Notes under the pieces: model-generated | What the model saw: only the letters and a program-made list of their open reading frames with translations | What the model was told of the DNA's origin: nothing | Database searches by the model: none | Assembly: GCF_000151315.2 (NCBI RefSeq) | Contig: NW_011887301.1 | Span: forward strand, 489,117-553,116 | From: Capsaspora owczarzaki ATCC 30864 | Lineage: Eukaryota > Opisthokonta > Filasterea | DNA length: 64,000 nt | Reading direction: 5' to 3' | Program-made: the position numbers and the translations under genes | Part shown: in pieces, positions 6,953-64,000 of the stretch | Layout: each line of letters starts with the position of its first letter | Numbering within the stretch: position 1 is the stretch's first letter

Positions 6953-10885
<3,933 letters not shown>

Positions 10886-53882: not shown

Positions 53883-54084
53883 GAAGGACAAAAACCTGTA
53901 GCGAGTGAGTCAGTTTGGTTTGGCGAATTGAACCGAGAATAGCGTCCGCAACAACAAGAAGAAGATCAAAGCAGCGCTTTGTCTCGCCCCCCTTAACGAG
54001 TGATCCTTGTTTTCGGAGACCCGTCTGTGCGAATTGTGCAACCGTGGATTCGCATACAAAGGTATGCAATCCAAGCCCAAACAA

Positions 54085-54150
54085 CAACGACAACAACAAT
54101 AACAACAACAACAACAACAGCAACAACAACAACAACAACAACAACAACAC
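54085..54150. repeat. (AAC)n microsatellite
   Basis: About 22 trinucleotide units of AAC with a few AAT, GAC and AGC variants. Confidence 0.9.
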
Positions 54151-54986
54151 TTCTGCCAAAACAAACGGTTGTTGCTTGGGATGAACACTTGTACCATCAA
54201 GCCTCCGCGATGGGCAAAATGCTCAGAGACACTCGCTCTTCAATGTTGGTAGTTCCATCCCGGTTGGTACTGGGCTGTGTTGCACGTTGCCGCCGGTTGT
54301 TGTTGTGGTAGTGTCAAGGTCGAAAGCGGAACTTCGGACTTGCCATTTTCGTTCCTCCGCTTCGTTTCACGCTCTTGTTCCCTTTTCCTCGCCCTTTCTC
54401 TCCCTCTCTCTCGCAATCTCATTCCGCTCCTCCTTCTCTACGACTCGAACAGACAATCAGCGTAGCGAGATGATTAGTGGAATGTTGGCGGTTGTTATTA
54501 TTTTCGCAAAAAACTCCAATTTGTTCTTTTCATTATTTTTCCATTATTTAAACAATTAAAATCAGAGTATTGGGTTGTGGCTTGTGCTTCGCCCACTGGC
54601 TCAAAGACCCCCACTGCCGCCTTCCCAATTCGGTTGTCTATCATGTGGACTCGCTGTCGTGCTTGGTTGCTCGCTTTCGGTGCCGACAAAAACGATGAAT
54701 TCCCATACCAACCAGCCACAACACGCAACAAATCGAAACGCCAGTCTTTTTTTTTTTTTTTTTTTCTTGTCTTTTCACGTCCGCTCTCTTGCTTTCTTCC
54801 ACTCTACTTTTCGTGCCTCTCAGAGGATCTCTTTCCCTTTGGATTTCGATTCCCTTGTCGCTCCTATTCTCGTCTCCTTTCGCTCCTCAGCCACTCTTCA
54901 GTTTTGTGCCACAGATCAACACTGTTCATACTTTCTTCCCTTTTTTAATTTGTATTTTTGTTTTTGTTTATTTTTGAACTTTTTGT

Positions 54987-57900
54987 ATGTCGCGAACTTC
55001 TCGATTCGCGGCGACATTTTTTGTCGCTGTTTTGCTGGTCGTTGCTGCCGCTGATGCCGCCCCGCGCATTCACCAGGCGCAGCCCAATGCTGCCAACACG
55101 GACGGCACCAGCACCACTCTCTTGAATCTGAGTGGCGACTTTGGCGTGTCGGCTCCGGCTGCAGGCCAGTTCAAGTGCCTGTTTGGCTCCACCCAACAGC
55201 AGTCGGTGGCGGCGACCTGGATTTCTTCGACCACTGCCACCTGCGTCCTGCCGACGCGTGCGACCCTCGTCTCGAACGGCGTCGATGTGATCGTCCGCAA
55301 CTACCTCAACGTGCTGCTCCCAGCGCCGTTCGTCAAAATGAGCTTGACTTTGGACAATGGCGCGACTTTGATCGCCAACTGGCTTCCCATCTTCTTCCCT
55401 GTCGCTCCGGCACTCTCGACGCTTTCGCCCGACCGGTAAGTAGTTGCTGAACAGCAGCATCCCGTTTTGCGCACTCTCGCTCTTTCTTTCTTCCTTTGGC
55501 TGCTCCTCGGAGCGAGGGGAGGGGCTCGGAGGTGGAGGTGTTGACTTCTAATTTGTCACAACATTTTTTTTAAAGTTTGAACCGCCTGTTTTATTTTTCC
55601 TTTTTTTTTTTTTTTTTTTAACAACTCTTGGGGTTCTGTCCCTCAAGCAGTGGGCTGCTGCGAACATTGAAAACATGTCGGAAGGTGTGCGACTTTTGAT
55701 TGATTTGTTGCCGCCACTGAATGGCTCGCGAGTGGTGATGATGATGACGATGATTGCGCATCGAACCATGCAAAACAAACGGACCAGAAAAAACAAAACA
55801 AACCCGCGACGACGCAAAGGCAGGACAAAAGCAATCAACAACAATCATCAACAAAAGGGGGAAAGGAACAGCTGTTGGCAACAATAACGGCGAACAGGTA
55901 TTTTTGGTGTGATTTTATTTTGTTTTTGCGCTATTCGCATTTTGCCTTGACGACCGGATTTCTGTTTTTGGATGCCTTCGAAGTTTATTGTCAACCCGAT
56001 ATGACACACCCGCTCCTTATCATCCACTCACTCGACGATGCATCCTGCACAACTTGACTCTCGCAGCGGTCCGACGACTGGCAACACTGTTGTTAGTGTT
56101 CAAGGCGCAAAGTAAGTTGCTAATGCCACAATTCTCGCTTGTGGAGGAGTGTACGAAAATTCTAACGATGGAACACAACAGCATTCTTGACAGCCGCGAC
56201 CTTCGCTGCAAGTTCAATGGGCAAGAAACGGTCGGTGCTTACGTGGACAGCACTCACTTGCAATGCCCGACTGCTCCTCAAGGCTCGGCTGCAAACGTGA
56301 ACATCGAAGTCAAGTCAACTCCCAAGCACATTAGCATGGCCCACCTGTTTGACGGTGTCAACGACTTTAGCGTCGCGCCCATTCCAACTTCGCTCCTTCA
56401 GTTCAACTTGACTGTTGAGATTTGGTTCCGCCCTGCCACGCCCGTTGGCTTGATCCAGGCTCTGGTTGACAGCTGCGTGCCTGGCGAAACTCCAGAGACA
56501 AACTGCAACTTTTGGATTGAAACTGGCAAGGCTGTTGCAGACGGCATCCATGGCGAGATTGGCATTGGTCACGAGTTTGGGGCGGGCAGCAATCAGCAAT
56601 ATGTGTACTCGGGGATCTTGGACAACACTTACAAGAACAAGTGGACGCACATTGCGCTCGTGCGCGAAGTGTGGGACAACACTACCATCGAGTGCTCTGG
56701 ATCGTCGTGCCCCTTCGTTGGCGAGTACCGCACGTACGTCAACGGCGAGCTTCTGCTCCCCACCTACAAGTTTACCGTCAACACTGATTTTGGCGAGACC
56801 AACACGTACGTTGGCTCGCTTTACACGACGTCGTTCTACAACGGCGGCATGGATGATTTCCGCATCCTCAACTACCCCATGACTCAAGCGCAGGTTCAGC
56901 AGTCGATGGAGGAGGTTTACTCGGGCTTTGAGGATGGCGTGCTTGTTTCGTGGGATTTCGAGCCCAACAACCAACAGTTTACTGTCCTCACGTACAACGC
57001 CGATGGCGTGACACCCAACACGTACACCCTCTACGCCCTCACGCCCTCGAACGTGGACGTCAGCCGCCAGCTGAACATGGGTGGCGGGACGAATGTGTTC
57101 ATTCCGAGCATCATCCAGACCGTTGCTTTTGCTGACTACCCGAGCTCTGCCCCGACTCTGAACTTTTTGTACTACACGCCCGAGACTATTACCACCTTTG
57201 CGCCCATGCACGGTGTTGTGTCTGGCGGCACGGTGGTGACTATTCAAGGCACTGGCTTTTTGAACTCGACCTACCTGTACTGCCGCTTTGGTAGTGCCAC
57301 CGCAACTCCAGCAACCTTTATCGATGCAACCACTCTGGAGTGCACCGCACCCGCCTTCACGGCTTGCTCGCAGAGCTCTGACAGCTTGAGCATTCCCGTT
57401 TACGTGTCAAACAACAACCAACAGTTTGTCGTCTCGTCAACCAATTTTACCTACTACCAGGCACCGACAATCCAAAGCGTGGCTCCTTCGCAGGCACCAC
57501 TCGCTGGTAATGTGCCAGTTACCATCTATGGCTCCGGCTTTGTGAATACCCCCGAGTTCCGCTGTCTGTTTGGCGTTATTGCTGTCGTGCCTGTTAGCGT
57601 CACTGCAACCTCTGCAGTTTGCGTGACCCCAGACAATCTGCCCGAGGGTGCTGTTGTGGCAAGTGTGACGATCGACGGCCAGACAGCGACGACTTCGCAA
57701 GTGATTTTCACGGCATTCGACCAATGGTCACAGATCGAGTCGACGGCTGTTGGTATTGCCATCATTCTCGGCATTGGCTTTGTGATGGTCGTTTGCGTTC
57801 ACATCTGGCTATTTATCAATCGAAATCAGAAGATTGTCAAGGCATCTGCACCTCTGTTTGGTCAGTTTATTCTGTTCGGGGCGTACCTCGGCTTCGGCGC

Positions 57901-58954
57901 AGTTGCCGCCTTCTTCCCCACGCCGACAGACGCCTCTTGCACTGTCGGTATCTGGTTTGTCTTCCTCTCGTTCACCTTCATGTTTGCAAGCCTATTTATC
58001 AAGAACTGGCGCATCCAGCGCATCTTCACTGTACGTGGTTGAGTTTTTGCTTGAGTGGTCTTTGCTCATGCTGTTTGTATGCATCGCTAACCTGTGATGC
58101 TGTACAACAATTGTAGAACAAGAAGCTTGGAAAGAACGTTTCACGCAATCTCGGGGATTCTCGCCTTGTTTTGGTGCTGTTTGTGTTTGTCGCAATCATG
58201 GCCATCATTCTTGCTGTTTGGACGGGCACTTCGAACGACAAGGTGGAGGTTCAGGATGACGGCTTCTCCTCTTGCTACGTTAATCCTACTTTCCAAGGCA
58301 TCCTGTTCGCCTACATGGGTTTGATGTTGCTGTTCGGTATCGTTCTGGCCTTCCGTACCCGCAACATTCAGGACGAAGCGTTCAATGAAAGCAAGATGGT
58401 TTCGGTGGCCATCTACAATGTTGCTTTCGTCACCGTCATCATGATTCCGCTGGTCTCGTTCACCACAGATGTCCGTGCTCTCCTCGTGATGAAGGTACGA
58501 TTCGTTCTGCGGGTGATGTGAGAGTCAAGTACCACAGCTTGCCTCACAAATGTTCTTTGCAACCATCTTCCTTTTGCTTTCTCTTTGGTACGATAGAGCG
58601 TCGGTATCCTGTTTGCAGTCCTTGTTACTGTAGGATTGGTGTTCTTCCCCAAGATTTGGGCCGTTGCCTTGCATAAACGTCGCGCGTGAGTGCCACCATT
58701 CCTCGTGGTTGTTGCAACTGACGAATTGATTTTGTTGCTCACATGTCGCTGGTTCATTTCTTTTCTTGTCATTCAGTGCACGCAACCGCACCGACTCTAC
58801 CAACCCCGACACCTCCAAGCGCACCGGAGCTGCAAGCGCGTCCAACCGACGACCATCCCCACACTCAACCGAGACACACTCCGAGAAGCATCAAATGAGC
58901 GAGATGCACGCGTCAGACAACCCAGTGCCGGCCGAACCGCAAGTAGTTGTTTGA
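54987..58954 (+). CDS. IPT/TIG-LamG class C-type seven-helix receptor, copy 1
   Basis: Cell-surface receptor. Six exons: 54987-55435, 56067-56111 (45 nt), 56182-58030, 58117-58494, 58597-58685, 58777-58954 (2988 nt, 995 aa, phases consistent). Signal peptide (FFVAVLLVVAAADAA); IPT/TIG-like domain split by exons 1-3 (FKCLFGSTQQQ, GPTTGNTVVSVQGA, DLRCKFNGQ); LamG/ConA-like domain (HLFDGVNDFSVAP, LTVEIWFRPATP, WTHIALVREVW, YVNGELLLP, NGGMDDFRILNYPMTQAQVQ); two further IPT/TIG domains (MHGVVSGGTVVTIQGTGF, APLAGNVPVTIYGSGF). Then seven helices resembling the GABA-B/class C family (VGIAIILGIGFVMVVCVHI, KASAPLFGQFILFGAYLGFG, FIKNWRIQRIFT, then KKLGKNVSRNL). TM1-3 lie in exon 3, the rest in exons 4-5. 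Polar tail ends EPQVVV, a possible class II PDZ ligand. No Venus-flytrap ligand domain. Confidence 0.9.
56182..58030 (+). repeat. Near-identical exon block, copy 1
   Basis: The 1849-nt third exon of receptor copy 1, about 98.4% identical to 61912-63760 with no indels. Identity extends some 40 bases into the following intron and then decays. Confidence 0.95.
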
Positions 58955-60456
58955 GTTTGTTTCGTGCCAGTCGTTTTTGTTTGTTTTGTTTTGCATTTTC
59001 GTTTTGTTTTTGCTTAGCTTTCGTTTTGCTACCGCTGTTATTTGTGATGAATTGGGCTGAGCCACCGTTTGAGCTATTATATTTTGAGTAAACAATATTC
59101 TAGCATGCTTCGGTAGTTGTGCAGGCGAGGTTGCGACCGTTAAACTTGCAGAGCTGGTCCAACTCCATCCTTCGGCTCAAGCTGCTTAGTCCGCCTGCGT
59201 CGCGGACCATGGTGTTTTGCTACTGTTAATGCTACTGTTAATACTTGTGGTGATGCTTGTGGTGATGATGGCGCAGGTGAGTCGTTGCCAAAATCGCACA
59301 AGTGTTTCAAGTCGTGTTTCAATCAACTTTGCCACCCATTTCTCGCTGCTGTGAGGATTCTCTCGGCCTGTGCTCGAAACCTCTGCATTCACAGAGGTTT
59401 TTTTATTCGGAGACTGAGAAAAGCAGGTTTGGAAGATCAAGTGAGGGGGTGGTGTGAGTTTCAGGGTTGCTCGTTTTTGTCGTGACAATTCCAAGCTCAC
59501 AATCAGCACGCTTCGAAAAAACGACAGGCCCGGAGATAGTCCCGCATTGGGAACCGACAATTACACGAGATCACTGGCGCAAGGGGAAGGCACACGGAGG
59601 TCGGGAAGGCGTGTAACGGTGAGCAGGAAAGTGGGTCCTGGGGACATGTTTGTTTCATTCGTTTCGCTTGAGTAATTTCGGCTAATCCTGACGTCGAATA
59701 ATCGTTGTTTCATCCCGCAACTGCCCCGCAACTGCCCTGTGAGGCTATTGGCCGGTTTTTCGACAAATGGCGTGTCAGGTGTTTGTGTTTGATTCCGTTT
59801 TGTTGTTGGGGAGCAAACACAAACAACAAAACACATAACAAAATGACATGACAATCCAAACGCCACACCTGCTGGCTGATCTGCCGCCGCCGCTTGTTGA
59901 TTCATAGAGCACAGCGGCAGGCGTCGCCCGCGCCACCCCCCTCTCCCTCCCTCGGCAGAGCGCGTCGACGATGGTCCCACTCGCTGCGTTCTCTGCGTCC
60001 GGTGAGCGGCAGTGCGGGTCAATAGACTCCGACAATGGGGGGAAACAAACCAAGCCCCTCGTGGCGCAGAGCTGCGGTTTTTGTTGACCGTTTTTGGCAA
60101 ATCCCGCTCTTCGGACCAAAAGCCCACTCGCTGCCTCCGCTTCTCTCCGGCGGTGTTGGCCGTTCGTTGCTAGGATCCACTTGCTCTTGTTCCCTACGAC
60201 CGATGCCCACCAAAGCGAGCCAAACTGCACTGCTAACAACGATGACAAAATTGTTTTTGCATTCTGTTGTGGCGTCGTTTTTTTGTTTTTTTGTATTGTT
60301 TTGTATTTTTTGGATTTTTTGGAAAGATCGTCGTCGTTTTCACTCTTCTTTGTTTTCATTGTTTTTTTTTTTTTATTTTATTTGTTCTTGCCTTTTCTGT
60401 TTCTCTTTTCGACACTTTCTCCATCGTTTCTTTCACCTTGTCAACAAGTGACAACG
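58955..60456. other. Intergenic region between the tandem 7TM receptors
   Basis: 1.5 kb, same-strand neighbours. T-rich before the second ATG (60265-60440). Short open frames only, with no recognisable domain. No extended similarity to the region upstream of copy 1 was seen by eye. Confidence 0.5.
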
Positions 60457-63400
60457 ATGATGAAGGCTAACGCTTTGCATGCAACGCGCCGTGTTGCGAC
60501 CGCGTGGGCGAATCGCGCGATGGTGATGATGGCAGCTGTCTTGGTCTGCAATCTTGTTTTGTGCGCCGCTGCGCTTCGCCTCGACGTCGTGCAGCCCAAC
60601 TGCGCGTCCTCCACCACAACCACCTCACTGACACTCACTGGCAACTTTGGCGCCGTGTCTCCGAGTGCCGGCGATGTCAAGTGCCTGCTCGGATCCACCC
60701 GTCAGTTTGCCGTTTCCGCCGCATGGTCGTCCACCTCTGTGACGTGCACCATTCCCTCCCTCACCGCTCTTCTCAATGCCGGCGTCGACCTCGTCACTCG
60801 CGACTTTTTGTACCAGCCTCTGCGCGCCAACTATGCACAGTTGCGTGTCACACTTGACAACAATGCCACGGCCGTCGACTCCTGGGTCGCGGTCTTCTTC
60901 CCCACCACGTCCACGCTCGCCTCCCTCACTCCTGACCGGTAAGACTTTTCTCTCCTGTTGCTTCTGCTTCTGCATTTGCTTTGGAGCAACTCCCACCGTC
61001 ATGATTCCTCTTTGTTTCCACCACGATTGTTCGGTCGGATTTCCCATCATTGTCGGGATTCCAAAAAGTCGGAAAAAAAAAAAAAAAAAGAAAGTCGAAA
61101 AACAAAAAATCGCCAAAAAAAAAAAAAATCAAACTATGAAACGCCCATTTTTATTATCATTTTGCCTTTTCGCATTGCAAAGTGAAGGCGAGTGGGTCAA
61201 TCTTTCGATCCCTTTGATGGATGCTTTCATTGAGCAACGAAGCAAGATCAGATAATGATTGGGGATTTGTGAGAGAGTGGGAGTGTCTTTGACTGTCGCA
61301 TCCAATCTTCAACAAAAACAGACGGCGGAAAACAAAAGAACACAAACAAAAACAAAATCCTTGTTGTCAACAACTAAAGCAAAACCGCAGAAGCGGAGAA
61401 GGACAATTTAACACCCAGAACAAACAAAAGTCGTGGATGAATCATCCACTCGGAAGCGAGCAGAGAAAGAACAAACAGACGGAGACGCTGAAGAAACGAG
61501 CAGATGAATCAGACAGTGGGAACAAAAAACCGACCAAACAAAAACGCGTCAATCACCACAGTTCGCAGCCCACTTGAGATTGAGCTGCGAAATTCTAAAG
61601 GAGGAGCGGTGAAGAAGGAACATTATTGGAAGGAGGAACAAACGGAAACCAGTGTGCGAAAATGATGCGAAAAAACAAAATAAAATGCGAAACTGAAGAA
61701 CTCACGTCGTGTTTAATTTTCGACGCTATTTGATTTGACTGACTTACTTGTGGTTTGCTGCGACTCCTCGGATTCAAAGTGGCCCAACAACTGGCAACAC
61801 TGTCGTCACGATTGCCGGCACAAAGTAAGTATCCGCCTGAAGAGCTTGATGTTTTTTGTAACAGAATGCCCTCACCTGTTGACTGTTGACTCGCCACTTT
61901 GTTACTTGCAGTGTCCTCGACAGCCGCGACCTTCGCTGCAAGTTCAACGGGCAAGAAACGGTCGGTGCTTACGTGGACAGCACTCACTTGCAATGCCCGA
62001 CTGCTCCTCAAGGCTCGGCTGCAAACGTGAACATCGAAGTCAAGTCAACTCCCAAGCACATTAGCATGGCCCACCTGTTTGACGGTGTCAACGACTTTAG
62101 CGTCGCGCCCATTCCAACTTCGCTCCTTCAGTTCAACTTGACTGTTGAGATTTGGTTCCGCCCTGCCACGCCCGTTGGCTTGATCCAGGCTCTGGTTGAC
62201 AGCTGCGTGCCTGGCGAAACTCCAGAGACAAACTGCAACTTTTGGATTGAAACTGGCAAGGCTGTTGCAGACGGCATCCATGGCGAGATTGGCATTGGTC
62301 ACGAGTTTGGGGCGGGCAGCAATCAGCAATATGTGTACTCGGGGACCTTGGACAACACTTACAAGAACAAGTGGACGCACATTGCGCTCGTGCGCGAAGT
62401 GTGGGACAACACTACCATCGAGTGCTCTGGATCGTCTTGTCCCTTCGTTGGCGAGTACCGCACGTACGTCAACGGCGAGCTTCTGCTTCCCACCTACAAG
62501 TTTACCGTCAACACTGATTTTGGCGAGACCAACACGTACGTTGGCTCGCTTTACACGACGTCGTTCTACAACGGCGGCATGGATGATTTCCGCATCCTCA
62601 ACTACCCCATGACGCAAGCGCAAGTTCAGCAGTCGATGGAGGAGGTTTACTCGGGCTTTGAGGACGGCGTGCTTGTTTCGTGGGATTTCGAGCCCAACAA
62701 CCAAGATTTTGACGTCCTCACGTACAACGCCGATGGCGTGACACCCAACACGTACACCCTCTACGCCCTCACGCCCTCGAACGTGGACGTCAGCCGCCAG
62801 CTGAACATGGGTGGCGGGACGAATGTGTTCATTCCGAGCATCATCCAGACCGTTGCTTTTGCCGACTACCCGAGCTCTGCCCCGACTCTGAACTTTTTGT
62901 ACTACACGCCCGAGACTATTACCACCTTTGCACCCATGCACGGTGTTGTATCTGGCGGCACGGTGGTGACTATTCAAGGCACTGGCTTTTTGAACTCGAC
63001 CTACCTGTACTGCCGCTTTGGTAGTGCCACCGCAACTCCAGCAACCTTTATCGATGCAACCACTCTGGAGTGCACCGCACCCGCCTTCACGGCTTGCTCG
63101 CAGAGCTCTGACAGCTTGAGCATTCCCGTTTACGTGTCAAACAACAACCAACAGTTTGTCGTCTCGTCAACCAATTTTACCTACTACCAGGCACCGACAA
63201 TCCAAAGCGTGGCTCCTTCGCAGGCACCACTCGCTGGTAATGTGCCAGTTACCATCTATGGCTCCGGCTTTGTGAATACCCCCGAGTTCCGCTGTCTGTT
63301 TGGCGTTATTGCTGTTGTGCCTGTTAGCGTCACTGCAACCTCTGCAGTTTGCGTGACCCCAGACAATCTGCCTGAGGGTGCTGTTGTGGCAAGTGTGACG

Positions 63401-64000
63401 ATCGACGGCCAGACAGCGACGACTTCGCAAGTGATTTTCACGGCATTCGACCAATGGTCGCAGATCGAGTCGACGGCTGTTGGTATTGCCATCATTCTCG
63501 GCATTGGCTTTGTGATGGTCGTTTGCGTTCACATCTGGCTATTTATCAACCGAAATCACAAGATTGTCAAGGCATCTGCGCCTCTGTTTGGCCAGTTTAT
63601 TCTGTTCGGGGCGTACCTCGGCTTCGGCGCGGTTGCCGCCTTCTTCCCCACGCCGACAGACGCCTCTTGCACTGTCGGTATCTGGTTTGTCTTCCTCTCG
63701 TTCACCTTCATGTTTGCAAGTCTGTTTATCAAGAACTGGCGCATCCAGCGCATCTTCACTGTACGTGGTTGAGTTTTGCTTGAGTGGTCTTTGCTCATGC
63801 TGCTGTTCGCATCGCTCACCCCCTTCCCCTTGCGCCTGCCCCTTTGGTGATGCTTTACGACTGTCGTAGAACAAAAAGATTGGCAAAACTGCATCGCGCA
63901 ACCTTAGCGACGATCGCCTCGTCTTGTTCTTGTTCATGCTCGTGACTGGTATGGTTGCCATCCTCGCGGCTTGGACTGGCACGTCGAACGATAAGGTGGA
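60457..64000 (+). CDS. IPT/TIG-LamG class C-type seven-helix receptor, copy 2 (3' end outside window)
   Basis: Tandem paralogue of the receptor at 54987 with the same exon plan: 60457-60938, 61780-61824 (45 nt), 61912-63760, then an exon from about 63871 running off the window. Exon 1 has a signal peptide (MVMMAAVLVCNLVLCAAA) and the first half of an IPT-like domain (LTLTGNFGAVSPSAGDVKCL), only about 40% identical in protein to copy 1, but ending in the same SLTPDR-type junction. Exon 3 has exactly the same length as in copy 1 (1849 nt) with about 30 base differences by eye and about five amino-acid changes. Exon 4 (NKKIGKTASRNLSDDRLVLF) is clearly more diverged. Junction phases match copy 1, so the gene looks intact as far as visible. 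Confidence 0.9.
61912..63760 (+). repeat. Near-identical exon block, copy 2
   Basis: Partner of 56182-58030 in direct orientation, 5730 bases downstream. The first ten bases of the exon already differ at four positions, marking the left edge of the conserved block. Confidence 0.95.

Follow-up and report, generated by a model that had tools for sequence, protein, structure and literature searches.

A mosaic of homogenised and diverged segments in two tandem putative class C-type receptor genes of Capsaspora owczarzaki

How can two neighbouring genes be almost identical in one long exon and strongly diverged, even at silent sites, in the sequence on either side of it? The question is raised by a tandem pair of receptor genes, here called A and B, in a stretch of 64,000 nucleotides (nt) from the filasterean Capsaspora owczarzaki ATCC 30864 (NCBI RefSeq assembly GCF_000151315.2, contig NW_011887301.1, positions 489,117 to 553,116 of the forward strand), which we call the window. 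A and B are neighbours on the same strand with six exons each. A third paralog, C, is found on contig C1; its exons 2-5 measure 45, 1849, 378 and 89 nt, lengths identical to those of A and B, and it serves as the outgroup copy. We believe that the pattern reflects recurrent interlocus gene conversion between two old tandem receptors, limited by their non-homologous introns, and give this reading a probability of about 0.92.

Silent divergence along the two genes

Synonymous divergence (dS; NG86 method with Jukes-Cantor correction) was compared pairwise among A, B and C for each segment. Exon 3 is 1849 nt long in both A and B and aligns with 30 mismatches and no indel (98.4% identity); its 616 whole codons hold 29 NG86 differences, 22 silent and 7 replacement. 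A first-pass annotation of the window had described this exon in just these terms, as mostly silently diverged, and had put the first exons at about 40% protein identity, which also stands (60 of 146 aligned residues, 41%). The dS of exon 3 between A and B is 0.052 (22 silent changes at 437 sites) compared with 1.6-1.7 between C and either of them, and with 1.98 in exon 1 (146 aligned codons), where the annotation had named silent divergence as low as that of exon 3 as a sign against its view. Exon 2 is likewise diverged (dS 1.11 over 16 codons; 75% protein identity), as is exon 6 (dS 2.43 over 53 poorly aligned codons; 8 of 53 residues, or 15%, identical).

Exon 4 is itself composite. Over its first part 48 of 153 nt differ between A and B, silent sites are saturated (27 differences at 35.5 sites, 0.76) and the proteins are 67% identical, whereas over its second part (58270-58494) 13 of 225 nt differ, dS is 0.19 (9 changes at 52.8 sites) and 71 of 75 residues agree (95%). 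The best changepoint falls at 58273 and was reached in 0 of 1000 permutations; silent sites in the two parts differ with p = 5e-8 (rounded counts). Exon 5 differs at 9 of 90 nt, with dS 0.47 (8 changes at 23 sites) and 29 of 30 residues identical (97%); its dS to C is 2.3 for A and 0.97 for B, the latter being the minimum for any segment in any comparison with C. At fourfold-degenerate sites, A and B differ at 26 of 42 in exon 1, 14 of 325 in exon 3, 10 of 16 and 6 of 36 in the first and second parts of exon 4, and 6 of 18 in exon 5. The private parts of A and B are exons 1, 2 and 6 together with the first part of exon 4. The annotation had called exons 4 strongly diverged on the strength of the 131 nt of B exon 4 inside the window, a description that holds for the first part and fails for the second, where silent divergence is low, if still above that of exon 3. 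Its related claim that the exon for transmembrane helices (TM) 4-7 stays distinct has to be given up: within the seven-transmembrane (7TM) region old sequence is confined to the opening 153 nt of exon 4, and TM5-7 has been homogenised, less recently.

A run test covered the 281 codons that vary silently among the three paralogs once gapped and replacement codons are dropped. A equals B at 214 of them, and the longest run is 62, compared with a maximum of 44 in 20,000 shuffles; for A-C and B-C the longest runs, 2 and 3, are ordinary (reached in 8835 and 5909 of 20,000 shuffles). By Fisher test, exon 3 was homogenised more recently than the second part of exon 4 (p = 0.003 for rounded silent-site counts and 0.009 for fourfold sites), and therefore the pair carries at least two ages of homogenisation. 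Against exon 5, that part of exon 4 shows no significant difference (p = 0.13).

The borders of the patches are sharp. At the start of exon 3 there are mismatches at 56182, 56183, 56185 and 56188 and the next is at 56218; at its end the near-identity of A and B reaches 43 nt into intron 3 with a single 1-nt indel. Exon 5 similarity extends about 11 nt into intron 5. Beyond these tracts, intron 2 is no more alike in A and B than shuffled sequence (z = 1.0), the 3' flanks of the two genes do not rise above shuffles, and a short similar piece is kept at the 3' end of intron 3. Thus three marks of interlocus conversion are found here: a low-dS segment with high dS on both sides, an outgroup copy free of constraint and a tract that enters non-coding DNA. 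The annotation's proposal of an old tandem duplication followed by recent conversion is strongly supported by the segment dS values and the run test, but its term exon-limited is not, as the tract runs on into intron 3, and separate, older patches lie in exon 5 and the latter half of exon 4.

Table 1. Segments of genes A and B, homogenised tracts, and two further receptor clusters (window numbering unless a contig is named)
Feature	Position	Strand	Remark
Gene A, whole	54987-58954	+	six exons
Gene A exon 1, N-terminus with presumed signal peptide	54987..55435	+	diverged from B
Gene A exon 2, 45-nt microexon, presumably within IPT domain	56067..56111	+	diverged from B
Gene A exon 3: rest of IPT region, laminin-G-like domain, IPT repeats, TM1-3, first half of intracellular loop 2	56182..58030	+	
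Gene A exon 4	58117-58494	+	378 nt
Gene A exon 5, TM7	58597-58685	+	89 nt
Gene A exon 6, cytoplasmic tail	58777..58954	+	diverged from B
Gene B, whole	60457 to just beyond window end	+	3' part read from fetched flank
Gene B exon 1	60457..60938	+	diverged from A
Gene B exon 2, microexon	61780..61824	+	
Gene B exon 3	61912..63760	+	1849 nt
Gene B exon 4, part inside window	63870..64000	+	first 131 nt
Gene B exon 4, full extent	63870-64247 (extended window numbering)	+	end = contig position 553363
Gene B exons 5, 6	64339-64427, 64528-64714 (extended window numbering)	+	beyond window
Putative conversion tract 1 in A (recent): exon 3 from 8th base and first 43 nt of intron 3	56189..58073	+	
Putative conversion tract 1 in B	61919..63802	+	1-nt indel in intron 3 relative to A
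Unconverted piece: second half of intracellular loop 2, TM4, start of next loop	58117..58269	+	first 153 nt of exon 4
Putative conversion patch 2 (older): remainder of exon 4, TM5-6 region	58273..58494	+	
Putative conversion patch 3 (older): exon 5 (TM7) and about 11 nt of intron 5	58597..58696	+	
C1 class C array, four genes T1-T4	G000:C1:3121.7-3135.4 kb (L021:2722 to L022:6435)		
C11 class C pair	G000:C11:453-461 kb; L025:3305-5201 and 8785-10675 (L025 and L026 numbered as one)		opposite orientation

Splice sites were placed by eye, from the consensus and the agreement of the three copies A, B and C. The length and phase of the 45-nt microexon are kept in all three paralogs (copy of C at L007:5267-5311). 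Searching with the protein of exon 3 yielded 21 matches, of which A, B and C alone span the exon from end to end; among the other 18, 17 match the TM1-3 end only and one an internal piece. Upstream of gene A, triplet repeats at 53909-54311 read as poly-Asn or poly-Thr frames in the list of open reading frames, a simple repeat.

The spliced protein of gene A matches the Pfam family 7tm_3 (PF00003) at E = 1.9e-52, TIG in three stretches at 1.3e-35, with TIG_plexin also listed, and Laminin_G_3 at 1.2e-9; the nearest solved structure to its 7TM region is GABA-B2 (7c7q_B, E = 9e-27). No ANF (Venus flytrap) domain was found in it by Pfam at E up to 0.1. That ectodomain is typical of the animal mGluR, CaSR and GABA-B members of class C. 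A and B are predicted to be class C (GABA-B/mGlu-like) type receptors with IPT and laminin-G ectodomains, the class being assigned from the 7TM region alone. Loops and helices of A and B carry the names that we take to apply to them.

Other tandem families in the genome

A genome search with Pfam 7tm_3 gave 34 matches, which include four groups of separate genes lying within about 10 kb (counted by eye), and all four were examined. Two of the three other class C clusters carry homogenised patches. In the C1 array the last open frame was compared in all six pairs: dS is 1.06-2.66 over codons 1-95 and 0.02-0.24 over codons 95-380, where T1-T3 encode identical protein. The rise is sharp, at about codon 80 for T1-T3, and in pairs that include T4 the high level is attained only near codon 120. 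Over the last 55 codons T1/T2 differ from T3/T4 with dS 0.40-0.55, so the C1 array is itself a mosaic. In the C11 pair dS falls from 0.55 in the upstream exon to 0.27 over codons 1-150 and 0.09 over codons 150-432 (3' 7TM and tail); judged on these dS values, it appears to be a milder and more gradual case than A/B. The C1 array and, mildly, the C11 pair have the reverse layout to A/B: the 7TM region is shared and the ectodomain is private.

The same kind of patch occurs in kinases, for which the search gave at least 176 matches, with at least five tandem clusters by eye among the matches listed; three clusters were examined, by nucleotide identity alone. The C13 cluster holds an identical run of 568 bp with strongly diverged flanks (L027:1407-1974 vs L027:7752-8319; G000:C13:715-722 kb) and a second patch of about 1.9 kb (C13:727.1-729.3 vs 732.2-734.3 kb). 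A tandem kinase pair on C1 (L031/L032; G000:C1:3487-3498 kb) shares about 95-99% identity across most of 6 kb and could be no more than a recent duplication, or else a long tract. Among the tandem families of this genome patchy conversion seems to recur, without being universal.

A signature of GC-biased conversion was sought and rejected, as there is no consistent signal: G+C at third codon positions (GC3) is not raised in exon 3 (0.67-0.68) above exon 1 (0.73), and for the C1 array the values are 0.76-0.77 within the tract vs 0.64-0.73 before it. A family search of the genome for cytochrome P450 gave 14 matches.

How the patches may have arisen

Based on these observations, we propose the following model. 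First, A and B would descend from an old tandem duplication, silent sites in their unconverted parts, introns and flanks now being saturated or nearly so. Two or more non-allelic gene conversions would since have copied blocks between A and B at the DNA level. The most recent would span at least about 1.88 kb, taking in exon 3 with 43 nt of the adjoining intron 3, and the older event or events would account for the second half of exon 4 and exon 5. We infer a recombination step with pairing and a direction, and take heterology to be what limits the tracts: introns and the short diverged pieces of exon would escape as they offer too little homology for pairing, and exon 3, the longest stretch free of indels, would be the main pairing island.

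Several observations weigh against this model or parts of it. Introns 1, 4 and 5 retain weak similarity between A and B (z = 3.9, 2.0 and 4.7 against single-base shuffles), which in intron 5 stems partly from the 11 nt or so adjoining exon 5. The annotation had called the introns unalignable beyond about 40 bases after the exon, which fits the 43 nt of intron 3 and the whole of intron 2 and is slightly too strong for these three and for the 3' end of intron 3. On the question of a single event, the largest mismatch-free gap in exon 3 has p = 0.029 (0.070 with one cluster collapsed) and the two largest jointly p = 0.007, in a test that used 28 of the 30 mismatches, 56182 and 56183 being left out. 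As to direction, C was compared at the 29 differences between A and B in the codons of exon 3: it agrees with A at 7, with B at 13 and with neither at 9. Neither the C19 class C pair nor the C2 kinase cluster has a homogenised patch. Finally, all comparisons were made within one genome assembly of one strain.

The strongest alternative keeps conversion and adds selection on domains. Conversions would fall at random, and selection would favour those that kept one ectodomain and most helices in common but spared the differences in loop 2-TM4 and the tail, giving one ligand and two outputs; the annotation had suggested a related reading, with a common putative binding ectodomain and different signal peptides and signalling helices. 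The exon 3/4 junction does lie inside intracellular loop 2 in the alignment to GABA-B2, and what A and B keep private is the N-terminus, loop 2-TM4 and the tail. However, in the first part of exon 4 dN (nonsynonymous divergence) is 0.20, below the saturated dS, with no sign of positive selection; the reverse layout of the C1 and C11 clusters tells against a single functional rule for all clusters; and kinases are patchy too. We consider domain selection unlikely. Given the reverse layout in two receptor clusters and the patches in kinases, a DNA-level mechanism without domain-specific selection suffices, and selection on receptor function is unnecessary for the pattern, although selection for a shared ectodomain is possible.

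Exon 3 exceeds the length of a Sanger or short read, and exon 3 of one gene might have been filled with reads of the other during assembly. Given that the 30 differences are spread along the exon, that the frames are open and the splice phases match, that the 20 kb fetched around the pair contain no N, that 43 nt of intron 3 are shared before a private intron begins, that A and B hold further patches of other ages, and that similar patches occur in other clusters, we regard such an artefact as very improbable.

Conversion from complementary DNA (cDNA) would explain why the homogenised sequence is mostly exonic. Yet the first 43 nt of intron 3 were copied without intron loss, from which it follows that the template was DNA, and the start of exon 4, which adjoins exon 3 in any cDNA, was not copied. 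The copied intronic bases and the old start of exon 4 together rule out a spliced template, and hardly any weight is left for this route.

Strong constraint on the synonymous sites of exon 3, from an overlapping antisense gene, RNA structure or codon use, would also keep dS low, and a minus-strand stop-to-stop frame of 363 residues is open in both copies (56315-57406; 62045-63136). This explanation is refuted by paralog C, which has the same exon length and is far diverged from both at silent sites, unless C lost the constraint; moreover, the shared 43 nt are intronic. We give it a negligible chance. Since C is without silent-site constraint, the antisense frames themselves are probably due to chance from codon use.

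A uniform recent tandem duplication, in which introns and flanks would be as similar as exons, is ruled out by the absent to weak similarity of introns 1, 2 and 4, the near saturation of exons 1 and 6 and flanks that resemble shuffles.

Known systems and significance

Recurrent conversion of this kind has precedents. In the mammalian tandem pair TLR1/TLR6 (PMC2077338), gene conversion keeps one region near-identical and the rest diverged, and A/B resemble it as tandem receptor paralogs homogenised in part. In TLR1/TLR6 the shared region comprises the C-terminal leucine-rich repeats, the transmembrane segment and most of the TIR domain, and recurs in nine species (PMC2077338). In A/B, by contrast, it comprises laminin-G, IPT and TM1-3 with older TM5-7 patches, and is known in one genome only. 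CCR2 and CCR5 are rhodopsin-class receptors. PMC8877049 describes conversion between these paralogous G-protein-coupled receptor (GPCR) genes in bats, with extensive tracts that include extracellular parts, as in A/B. Unlike them, A and B are six-exon class C-type receptors whose tracts end in or at introns.

A 2025 catalogue of GPCRs in relatives of animals reports filasterean glutamate-family receptors with varied N-terminal domains (PMC12716839). Like A/B, its non-metazoan class C set, for which filastereans were sampled, combines a 7tm_3 core with ectodomains unseen in animals; the words IPT, tandem and gene conversion are absent from its main text (PMC12716839). Literature searches on Capsaspora and gene conversion, and on tandem-duplicated receptors of filastereans, returned no title on the A/B locus among those listed, and one on conversion tracts with diverged introns gave no match. 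The kind of event is already known from TLR1/TLR6 and the novelty of A/B is modest, namely that of a well-resolved mosaic.

A and B offer a clean case of segmental concerted evolution, and their host may be a close unicellular relative of animals. For the tandem class C receptors and kinases of this genome, the outcome of trees, ortholog assignments and dating depends on the segment chosen. A wider proposition is that recurrent conversion lets the tandem receptor families of this genome evolve in modules, arranged in opposite ways from cluster to cluster (the ectodomain shared and loop 2-TM4 and tail private in A/B, the 7TM region shared and the ectodomains private in C1 and mildly in C11), and that conversion is a routine way of combining sensing and output parts; this is tentative, and to our minds doubtful. 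If the opposite layouts were indeed selected, the link between conversion and receptor modularity would be testable in a single-celled organism.

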